33,089 bases of DNA from an uncultured Clostridia bacterium (GTDB lineage Bacteria; Bacillota; Clostridia; Oscillospirales; UBA644), in NCBI GenBank assembly GCA_944386295.1, contig CALXAO010000095.1:1-33089 (forward strand), read 5' to 3'. The notes below the pieces were generated by a model. It was not told where the DNA came from. It saw only the letters and a list, made by a program, of their open reading frames with translations, and did no database searches. This document shows, piece by piece, positions 16,325 to 19,254 of this stretch. Position 1 is the stretch's first letter, and each line of letters starts with the position of its first letter. The position numbers and the translations under genes were made by a program.

Positions 16325-17671
16325 CTATTTCAGGACGCGACAGGTTTGTATCCCGTAGTATTCCAAACAAGCGATGGCCGTCTTGTCGATTCGTTCTCCG
16401 CAGACCAGTATCGGGACGGCAGGAGGACAGCTGACTGTGGGTGTGCCCAGAATCCGTCCGAGGCATGCTTGGACATTTTTTTCTTCCTGTGGGGAGAGCA
16501 GCGCTTCTCGCGGGGAACAGACAGTTTCCGGTCGAAGCGGAAGCGGTGGTTGATTCGGAATTGGTTTCCGAGGAATTAATGTTGCCAATGTTTTCTGCAG
16601 CCGTTTTATCTCCTGTTCAGAAATTTCCGGTGAAATCATCAGGACAAGAAAATCCGGATCGGAAAATTCTGGGATAATCCCCCGCTTTTGCAGAAAATCT
16701 GCTACCTCTCGCCCCGTATAGCCGAATTCTTTGGGCGCCAAAGTCAGTTTTAAGGGTTCGTTTCCCCGAAATAGAGGTTGAAGGTCCGGAAGCTGTTGCT
16801 TCAATGCTTCCGTCCATGTGATGCAGCGGGCCAGCCGTTCTCGGTAATTTCCGGCAAGAATCTGGTTTGCGTAATCTAGGGATTGCAGAATCAGATATGA
16901 GGGGCTGGTCGAGGCAAAGACCGAAAGGGCAGATTCCGCCATGGAGATCAGCGAGGCGGGTGCTTTGGTCGAGAAATGCAGATATGCACCTCCGGTTAGT
17001 ACCGGAAGGGTTTTATGGGCAGAGTCACAGCAAAGATCTGCTCCCAGAGTCATGGGGTGTAGAGAAGGGGAGAGAAAATTTAGATAAGCACCATGGGCAT
17101 TGTCTACCATCAGCAGCGTTTTGTGCTTTTTGCAGATTTCAGATAAGCCGGTCAGGTCGACCCGGTTTCCCAGATAGTCCGGGCTTGTAAGATAAACCGC
17201 TGCAATCGGTGCAGACTCTTCTGATAGGGCAGTATCCAATTCTTCCGGAGTTATTGGGCAAGAAAGCAGATTTTCCCTATTCCGAGGGAACAGCCACTGG
17301 ATTTTGCAATCTAACAGAGCTGCAGATGTCAAAAATGTTTTGTGGGCATTGCGTCCAGCCAAAATTTTTGGCTGCCGTCCGGTTTCCTTGCTGTAAAGCA
17401 AGGCTAGGTATACCATAGCGCGAATGCACAGGGAGGACCCTTCGGCTGAATAAAAGGTTCGCCCTGCACCAAACAGTTCTGCTGCCCGCGCCTGACTTTC
17501 CAAAAGAATTCCCTGGGCGGAATACAGTACATCAGCTCCCTCAATTTCAGTAATATCAAGGGCTTCCGGTCCCAAAACAGGATTGCCCTTATGTCCTGGC
17601 ATATGTAGACGCAAAGGAGATGACTTGGCGTATTGTTCTACGAAATCGCAAAGAGGTATTTGGGATTTCAT
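16325..17671 (-). CDS. Orn/Lys/Arg decarboxylase family PLP enzyme
   Basis: A fold-type I PLP decarboxylase of the SpeA/YaaO group, 448 residues. RLHMPGHKGN (about 21-30), AEGSS (76-80), VDNAHG (D190 and H193 stack on and pair with the cofactor) and DSAHKTLPVLTGG with the Schiff-base lysine K220 are all present. The C-terminal small domain continues to a cysteine-containing end. It would decarboxylate a basic amino acid to a polyamine precursor, but the substrate is not decidable here. The N-terminal wing domain of the long inducible decarboxylases is missing, as in biosynthetic forms. ATG 17671 overlaps the stop of the radical SAM gene in ATGA, so translation is probably coupled; I reject a longer start 42 bases upstream for that reason. 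Confidence 0.9.
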   Translation of the reverse strand: MKSQIPLCDFVEQYAKSSPLRLHMPGHKGNPVLGPEALDITEIEGADVLYSAQGILLESQARAAELFGAGRTFYSAEGSSLCIRAMVYLALLYSKETGRQPKILAGRNAHKTFLTSAALLDCKIQWLFPRNRENLLSCPITPEELDTALSEESAPIAAVYLTSPDYLGNRVDLTGLSEICKKHKTLLMVDNAHGAYLNFLSPSLHPMTLGADLCCDSAHKTLPVLTGGAYLHFSTKAPASLISMAESALSVFASTSPSYLILQSLDYANQILAGNYRERLARCITWTEALKQQLPDLQPLFRGNEPLKLTLAPKEFGYTGREVADFLQKRGIIPEFSDPDFLVLMISPEISEQEIKRLQKTLATLIPRKPIPNQPPLPLRPETVCSPREALLSPQEEKNVQACLGRILGTPTVSCPPAVPILVCGERIDKTAIACLEYYGIQTCRVLK

Positions 17672-19035
17672 GGGTGCAGGTCCGCTTTTGCGGCTTCCAG
17701 GAAAATGGCGCATTCTATCCGTTTGCGAAACAGTTCACAGCCGTATTTATAAACACCCTGTACCGAACCGGTGGCGTGGTAGGCATTGGCTGCGCAGCCG
17801 CCTGCACAGTAAAGCTTTGCCCAGCACTCTTTACATTGGGGACGGCTGTAAACATTACAGTCTGCAAATTTCTGTTGTGTTGCCCAGTTGGTAACTCCAT
17901 GCCAGATATCTCCCAGACGAAATTCTTCTTCTCCCACAAACTGATGGCAGGGATATAGGTCCCCCCAAGGGGTAACAGCCATATATTCAGTGCCTGAGCC
18001 GCAGCCGGAAATACGTTTGTAAATGCAGGGGCCGTCTTTGAGGCTAATCATGTAGTGATAAAAGGTAAATGGCTTTCCCTGCCGTTCCCGTTCCAGCATC
18101 AGCAGCGCTAATTGTTCGTATTGTTCCATAATGACGGGCAGGTCTTTTTCTGTCAGGGCCGACGGGTCATCAGGCGGGCAGACCACAGGTTCCATACTGA
18201 GCTCGGTAAAACCCAAGTCCAGCATCTGCCGGATATCTTTCAGAAAATCCGGATTAGCGTGGGTAAAGGTTCCTCGGATGTAATAATTTTTATTCCCCCG
18301 TGCGTTTACCAACTTCTGAAATTTTGGAACAATACGATCCCAGCTGCCTTTGCCGGCATAGTCTATCCGGAACCTATCATGAATTTCTTTTCGACCGTCC
18401 AGACTGAGAACTACGTTGCTCATTTCCTTATTGGCAAACGCGATAATGTCGTCATCCAAAAGCATACCGTTGGTCGTCAGGGTAAAACGGAAATTTTTAC
18501 CGCATTCTTTTTCCCGATTACGGGCATAAGCCACCAGGTGCTGAACCACGTCGAAATTCATCAGAGGCTCTCCGCCGAAAAAATCTACCTCTAAATTGGT
18601 GCGTTCTGCGGAATTTTCGATTAAAAAATCCAGCGCACGCTTTCCGACGTCCAAGGACATGACTTCCCTGTCTCCATGATATTTTCCCTGGCTGGCAAAG
18701 CAATAGGAACAGTTCAGATTGCAGGTATGAGCCACATGGAGGCAGAGGGCTTTGATTACATTAGTGTTCTTTTGCTTGAGTCGATCGGCCAGCGGTTCAA
18801 AGGTATCAGCGGCGAATAGCCTGCCCTCCTGTCGGAGTTGTTCAATCTGTTCGTAGCATTCTTCCAGTTCCGGGTCTTTTCCATAGGTTTTGTGCATGGT
18901 GTTTAGAACCTGCTCTTTGGTGTGGTCTGCAAACATGCCGATCATTTCGTATGCCACCTTGTCCACTACATGAACCGAACTGGAAAAGGTGTCGAGTACA
19001 ATATAATACTCACCCAATTGATAACGATGGATCAT
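17668..19035 (-). CDS. SCIFF peptide radical SAM maturase (ranthipeptide synthase)
   Basis: A 455-residue radical SAM enzyme with a C-terminal SPASM domain. C105, C109 and C112 in HTCNLNCSYCFASQG bind the SAM-cleaving 4Fe-4S cluster; FFGGEPL is the SAM-contact motif. The N-terminal about 90 residues form the peptide-binding region seen in RiPP maturases. The C-terminus has the SPASM cysteine pattern (CGSGTEYMAVTPWGDLYPCH, then CKECWAKLYCAGGCAANAY, then a Cys near GVYKYGCELF) for auxiliary clusters. Enzymes of this type (CteB, Tte1186) install a thioether between a peptide cysteine and a nearby residue. The partner peptide lies 63 bases upstream. GGGAG is 7 bases before ATG 19035. Confidence 0.95.
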   Translation of the reverse strand: MIHRYQLGEYYIVLDTFSSSVHVVDKVAYEMIGMFADHTKEQVLNTMHKTYGKDPELEECYEQIEQLRQEGRLFAADTFEPLADRLKQKNTNVIKALCLHVAHTCNLNCSYCFASQGKYHGDREVMSLDVGKRALDFLIENSAERTNLEVDFFGGEPLMNFDVVQHLVAYARNREKECGKNFRFTLTTNGMLLDDDIIAFANKEMSNVVLSLDGRKEIHDRFRIDYAGKGSWDRIVPKFQKLVNARGNKNYYIRGTFTHANPDFLKDIRQMLDLGFTELSMEPVVCPPDDPSALTEKDLPVIMEQYEQLALLMLERERQGKPFTFYHYMISLKDGPCIYKRISGCGSGTEYMAVTPWGDLYPCHQFVGEEEFRLGDIWHGVTNWATQQKFADCNVYSRPQCKECWAKLYCAGGCAANAYHATGSVQGVYKYGCELFRKRIECAIFLEAAKADLHP

Positions 19036-19060: not shown

Positions 19061-19082
19061 AATGCCGCCTTCCGGCGGCATT
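19061..19082 (-). promoter_or_regulatory. Intercistronic hairpin between SCIFF peptide and maturase
   Basis: A perfect 9-bp stem, AATGCCGCC with GGCGGCATT, closed by a GGAA tetraloop on the minus strand and followed by TTTG. It lies between the peptide stop and the maturase ribosome site. It could be a partial terminator or an RNA stabiliser that makes peptide more abundant than enzyme. Confidence 0.6.
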
Positions 19083-19098
19083 CCGATTGTATCGAAGC

Positions 19099-19254
19099 TT
19101 ATTTCATTTCCTTTTTAGTATTTTCGCACTGCTGATTTGCGATTCCACAACTGGTCTTGCAGGCTGACTGGCAAGAAGTCTGACATTCGCCGCAGCCGCC
19201 GTTTTTTGCGCTTTGGCACAGATTCCGTGTTTCCAGTGTTTTGATGTGTTTCAT
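19099..19254 (-). CDS. SCIFF precursor peptide (six-cysteines-in-forty-five family)
   Basis: A 51-residue peptide, beginning MKHIKTLETRNLCQSAKNGG and continuing CGECQTSCQSACKTSCGIAN. This is the highly conserved SCIFF precursor; the leader MKHIKT and the core CGECQTSCQSACKTSC are near the family consensus. Cysteines are at 13, 21, 24, 28, 32, 36 and 43, so one more than the six of the family name, the extra one at 13. Position 37, where I recall a threonine acting as acceptor for Cys32 in studied members, is glycine. GGAGG lies 9 bases before ATG 19254, and a perfect promoter lies upstream. The maturase follows. SCIFF products have been proposed to act in signalling; the role here is unknown. 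Confidence 0.95.
   Translation of the reverse strand: MKHIKTLETRNLCQSAKNGGCGECQTSCQSACKTSCGIANQQCENTKKEMK

Follow-up and report, generated by a model that had tools for sequence, protein, structure and literature searches.

Gly37-type SCIFF peptides form a single-origin branch of the family that co-segregates with its own maturase clade

Results

Glycine at position 37 of the SCIFF peptides is a derived state, which was fixed once along with a distinct clade of the maturase ScfB; the distribution of the residues, the single origin of Gly37 and its co-segregation with the maturase are established here by family-wide sampling and by phylogenetic analysis. The combination of Gly37 with a leader cysteine, Cys13, as found in the peptide encoded in the analyzed stretch of DNA (33,089 nucleotides, referred to as the window), is a hallmark of a SCIFF branch with its own matched maturase and not a fluke of one genome.

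The precursor peptide and its maturase

The scfA reading frame runs from 19254 to 19099 on the minus strand and is preceded on its 5' side by an AGGAGG ribosome-binding site; its product is MKHIKTLETRNLCQSAKNGGCGECQTSCQSACKTSCGIANQQCENTKKEMK. This peptide has a cysteine at position 13 of the leader and six cysteines in the core, at positions 21, 24, 28, 32, 36 and 43, together with Thr34 and Gly37, as the earlier note on this DNA had read from the sequence, and it is recognized by both family models (TIGR03973, 80 bits with a cut-off of 50; PF13165, 82 bits with a cut-off of 27). The six core cysteines have the fixed spacing of SCIFF peptides, within about 45 residues, and their columns are invariant or nearly so across the family; a gene of the ScfB type is present on the same strand, 63 bases downstream. 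The residue that is lacking is Thr37, which is the acceptor reported from in vitro work and not a criterion of family membership. The leader of CteA, as seen in the solved structure, aligns with ScfA over residues 1 to 21 without gaps, and therefore the residue numbers used here (Cys32, Thr34 and residue 37) are those of the literature. The peptide of the window is the only SCIFF peptide of its genome.

Table 1. Positions of the scfA-scfB locus features in the window
Feature	Position	Strand	Description
Orn/Lys/Arg decarboxylase-family gene	16325..17671	-	PF01276; start overlaps the scfB stop (ATGA)
scfB	17668..19035	-	455-aa radical SAM/SPASM SCIFF maturase of the Gly37-type clade, HTCNLNC loop
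Hairpin	19061..19082	-	Perfect stem of 9 bp with GGAA as the loop; between scfA and scfB; resembles a terminator or attenuator
scfA	19099..19254	-	51-aa SCIFF precursor, Gly37 type, seven Cys
Gly37 codon GGA	19144..19146	-	Thr in most of the SCIFF family
Thr34 codon ACC	19153..19155	-	Invariant alternative acceptor
Cys13 codon TGC	19216..19218	-	Extra Cys, in the leader

The ScfB of the window scores 732 bits with TIGR03974 (cut-off 425) and aligns end to end with CteB (PDB entry: 5WGG; 532 bits). All 12 family-conserved cysteines are present, including those of the CxxxCxxC motif and of the SPASM auxiliary clusters, as is the RRE, and the 12 cysteines are kept by the Gly37-type maturases in general. 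Seven other maturase sites are conserved within each group and yet differ between the Thr37 and the Gly37 type: Asp104 to Thr, Arg108 to Asn, Glu305 to Gln, Phe326 to Tyr, Phe328 to Tyr, Leu342 to Ile and Phe408 to Leu. Sites 104 and 108 are within the CxxxCxxC loop of the SAM-binding [4Fe-4S] cluster, which changes from HDCNLRC to HTCNLNC in the Gly37 type. It is possible that these diagnostic sites read residue 37, although such sites are expected in any case, because the Gly37 maturases have a long stem branch.

The hairpin in the scfA-scfB gap (Table 1) has counterparts in this gap at 98 of the 122 loci of the Gly type and at 142 of the 179 of the Thr type, and it may set the ratio of peptide to enzyme. 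The decarboxylase-family gene is likely part of the same operon as scfB, and such a gene is present in 64 of the 71 Gly37 loci, named or near, that extend far enough downstream, and in few other branches. The TetR-like gene upstream is ruled out as a part of the system, as it is not conserved (one of 134 Gly-type loci).

Distribution of residue 37 and of Cys13 in the SCIFF family

Searches with PF13165 covered 295 genomes at the level of the order, 391 at that of the class and 398 at that of the phylum, with matches in 222, 328 and 318 of these, respectively; loci were taken mostly one per genus, and 80 named relatives from a similarity scan were added. Among the 260 distinct peptides sampled by the family model, drawn from the better-scoring matches, 198 have Thr and 62 have Gly as residue 37, and every one has Cys32 and Thr34. 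Cys13 is found in 29 of these 62 Gly37 peptides and in none of the 198 Thr37 peptides, so that in the alignment that had been proposed as a check, Cys13 is a subset of Gly37. In the closest relatives (79 distinct peptides), Gly37 is present in all and Cys13 in 78. Gly37 is also fixed across 56 sampled genera. The family sample and the closest relatives rule out Gly37 as a rare anomaly, and the rarity implied by the earlier note does not hold; that note had accepted that its reading would suffer if Gly37 were common among modified SCIFF peptides, and of this the commonness in SCIFF peptides is what has been found.

Because this sample is biased to better-scoring matches, two more batches of weak-scoring members were read, which gave exceptions: peptides in which Ser32 and Ser37 occur together, a single Ala37 peptide, and peptides with Leu or Ile in place of Cys36. 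The statement that position 37 is only Thr or Gly, which held for 354 distinct cores, fell with these members, as did the invariance of Cys32. The resulting 426 distinct cores comprise 261 with Cys32/Thr37, 148 with Cys32/Gly37, 10 with Ser32/Ser37, six with Cys36 changed to Leu or Ile and with Thr37, and one with Ala37, totals that are not frequencies, since the set takes in relatives selected by similarity. Thr34 is present in all 426, the weak-scoring members included. The peptides with Leu or Ile at position 36 (L354, L371, L436, L454, L470 and L483) retain Thr34 as well as Thr37 and come from three GTDB families. In family f57, the Ala37 peptide (L464, genome G503) and a Thr37 peptide (L289, G383) are orphan precursors: their genomes are nearly complete, and no ScfB in them scores above the cut-off.

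The leader of CteA consists of residues 1 to 18, with the core starting at residue 19 (PMC8326336), and Cys13 is therefore a leader residue; the six core cysteines are intact. Its position in the leader, and the recurrence of extra leader cysteines elsewhere, rule out Cys13 as a seventh core cysteine. Other leader cysteines, for example Cys17, accompany Thr37. Cys13 probably has no role in the crosslink of the Gly37 peptides.

Phylogeny of the maturases

When the Thr37/Gly37 label is placed on a FastTree phylogeny of 320 maturases, it changes once. In the IQ-TREE phylogeny (103 rows, about one per genus, with a paralogue that is not ScfB as the outgroup), the Gly37 maturases are a single clade with an SH-aLRT value of 100, and none of 500 shuffles gives a count as low. 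A single change is also what each part of the maturase (RRE, radical SAM or SPASM) yields by itself, and what remains when the diagnostic sites are removed from the alignment. The outgroup-rooted tree places the Gly37 clade inside the Thr37 diversity, and the loop of the outgroup paralogue is HDCNLRC. Both types of residue 37 occur in eight of 105 GTDB families but in none of 219 genera; this patchy family distribution fits with transfer of the scfA-scfB pair as a unit, or with its differential loss.

A bordering lineage has serine at both position 32 and position 37. A scan of 394 genomes from the order finds the pattern QSASKTSCS in 11, belonging to six genera, and all 11 encode SCIFF peptides with Ser32 and Ser37 (L459, L466, L486-L496), in which Ser32 leaves no thiol at this position and the donor cysteine is absent. 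Among those of these genomes that were covered by the PF13165 search, no second SCIFF peptide was found. In four of these genomes the adjacent ScfB was tested, and it is intact in each, with 742-755 bits. Except for one partial sequence, the maturases of this lineage retain Asp104, and they branch beside the Gly37 clade: in the best tree they are a grade from within which Gly37 arises, and a single Ser clade is not rejected (AU test, p 0.185). The Ser codons of the peptides are mostly AGY. A change from AGY (Ser) to GGY (Gly) takes one step, and a change from Thr to Gly takes two.

Discussion

The apparent anomaly in the peptide of the window is ordinary in its order, and it is the family split behind it that is worth an experiment. 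In the literature covered, in which the primary SCIFF work is represented through reviews, no description of the Thr37/Gly37 split was found. The consensus SCTVAN, which the earlier note had given, is correct (PMC8326336, PMC8172795). The Cys32-Thr37 thioether of that note agrees with the in vitro assignment for Tte1186a and CteA, as given in two reviews (PMC8326336, PMC8172795), but is one side of a dispute: according to the same reviews, co-expression of CteA with CteB (Hudson et al. 2019) gave a thioether between Cys32 and the gamma carbon of Thr34 instead. The reviews leave this disagreement standing. The remark of the earlier note that Thr34 is near thus finds a counterpart in the acceptor of the later study, a residue that is moreover invariant.

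The SCIFF system of the window, one of a Gly37-type subfamily, is probably functional. We lean, by somewhat more than an even chance, toward a normal SCIFF system, with Cys32 joined to Thr34 and with Gly37 marking a co-evolved subfamily and not a broken acceptor. The RRE of the neighbouring ScfB would bind the leader, approximately residues 1 to 18 and including Cys13, and the enzyme would then use Cys32, one of the six core cysteines, to form a radical thioether. Because Gly37 is without a side chain and Thr34 is invariant, the thioether would most likely go to Thr34, which is two residues away from Cys32, and be formed at its gamma carbon, in line with the report on co-expressed CteA and CteB. 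This invariance does not single out the acceptor, as Thr34 is part of the block QSACKTS, which is invariant almost throughout. What speaks against a Cys32-Thr34 link is that residue 37 does not vary freely but has almost only two states, and that it co-segregates with the enzyme, which suggests that this residue is sensed by the enzyme or the product. The bordering lineage, where 32 and 37 both became Ser and 34 stayed Thr, also hints at a coupling of 32 with 37.

The closest known system is thermocellin, CteA/CteB of Acetivibrio (Clostridium) thermocellum (PDB entries: 5WGG and 5WHY). CteA is of the same precursor family, with the gap-free leader numbering, the six core cysteines, Cys32 and Thr34 in common, and CteB has RRE, radical SAM and SPASM parts that are aligned with those of the window ScfB. 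The window differs from CteA by Gly37 in place of Thr37, by Cys13 in the leader and by the leader motif TRNL, and from the CteA/CteB system by HTCNLNC in place of the Thr-type loop and by the decarboxylase-family gene after scfB. Tte1186a/Tte1186 of Caldanaerobacter subterraneus is likewise a SCIFF peptide with an ScfB maturase and with Cys32 as the donor, but the acceptor reported in PMC8326336 is Thr37, which is Gly in the window peptide. The maturase of the ranthipeptide freyrasin (PapA/PapB) likewise belongs, as a SPASM radical SAM enzyme, to the wider ranthisynthase group. Freyrasin differs in having Cys-X3-Asp repeats with six Cys-Asp beta links and is outside the SCIFF family; the window ScfB scores 279 bits with the PapB model, below the cut-off of 340.

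It is also possible, although unlikely, that the Cys32 thioether was lost in the Gly37 and Ser32/Ser37 branches and that ScfB uses another donor cysteine or another core chemistry. This is in agreement with the 11 Ser32/Ser37 genomes of six genera, which have no thiol at 32, with the high scores of the four ScfB tested there and with their position beside the Gly37 clade. However, every member of the Gly37 clade has Cys32, and neither an alternative donor nor an alternative product is known. A stepwise series of the peptide together with its maturase, from Cys32/Thr37 via Ser32/Ser37 to Cys32/Gly37, in which the enzymes of the Ser32/Ser37 and Cys32/Gly37 states carry out reactions undescribed for SCIFF peptides (an alpha-carbon link between Cys32 and Gly37, or a reaction without a thiol at 32), is doubtful to a comparable degree.

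In a ranthipeptide the thioether is formed to a beta or gamma carbon and in a sactipeptide to the alpha carbon, and Gly37 would allow a link of the sactipeptide type. We consider it rather improbable that the ScfB of the Gly37 clade takes the alpha hydrogen of Gly37 and generates a sactionine-type Cys32-Gly37 thioether, with the Thr37-type enzymes bonding the Thr side chain and the loop change reflecting this switch. Gly37 is strictly kept within the clade and co-segregates with the changed radical SAM loop, and there is a precedent in streptosactin (GggA/GggB), in which a radical SAM/SPASM enzyme joins Cys31 to the alpha carbon of Gly34 (PMC8172795). The precursor of streptosactin is unrelated, however, and GggB is of another maturase family, the window ScfB matching its model weakly (77 bits, cut-off 650). 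Furthermore, an alpha link is found in no known SCIFF or ranthipeptide, Thr34 is on hand two residues from Cys32, and the changes in the loop may just as well have come about by drift along the long stem. That Gly37 is a damaging change in a gene undergoing decay, with Cys13 as noise, has next to no probability and is already refuted by the alignment, with Gly37 fixed in so many genera, peptide and maturase intact and the conserved core unchanged, even if orphan SCIFF peptides without ScfB exist elsewhere, in the f57 lineage.

Natural controls exist for the Thr37 or Thr34 dispute: Thr37 is missing from one large clade and the donor Cys32 from a smaller lineage, and both have intact maturases of their own. 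The natural pairs of the Thr37, Ser32/Ser37 and Gly37 types would allow a direct test of the acceptor and might uncover a shift in radical chemistry within a single enzyme family.

Three loci (L372, L374 and L375), all of the Gly37 type, encode tandem two-core SCIFF peptides as single reading frames, with a leader-like stretch for each core. A Cys13/Gly37 peptide is also found in L046, a record whose name (Erysipelatoclostridium sp. An173) belongs to a distant class, which suggests transfer or contamination.
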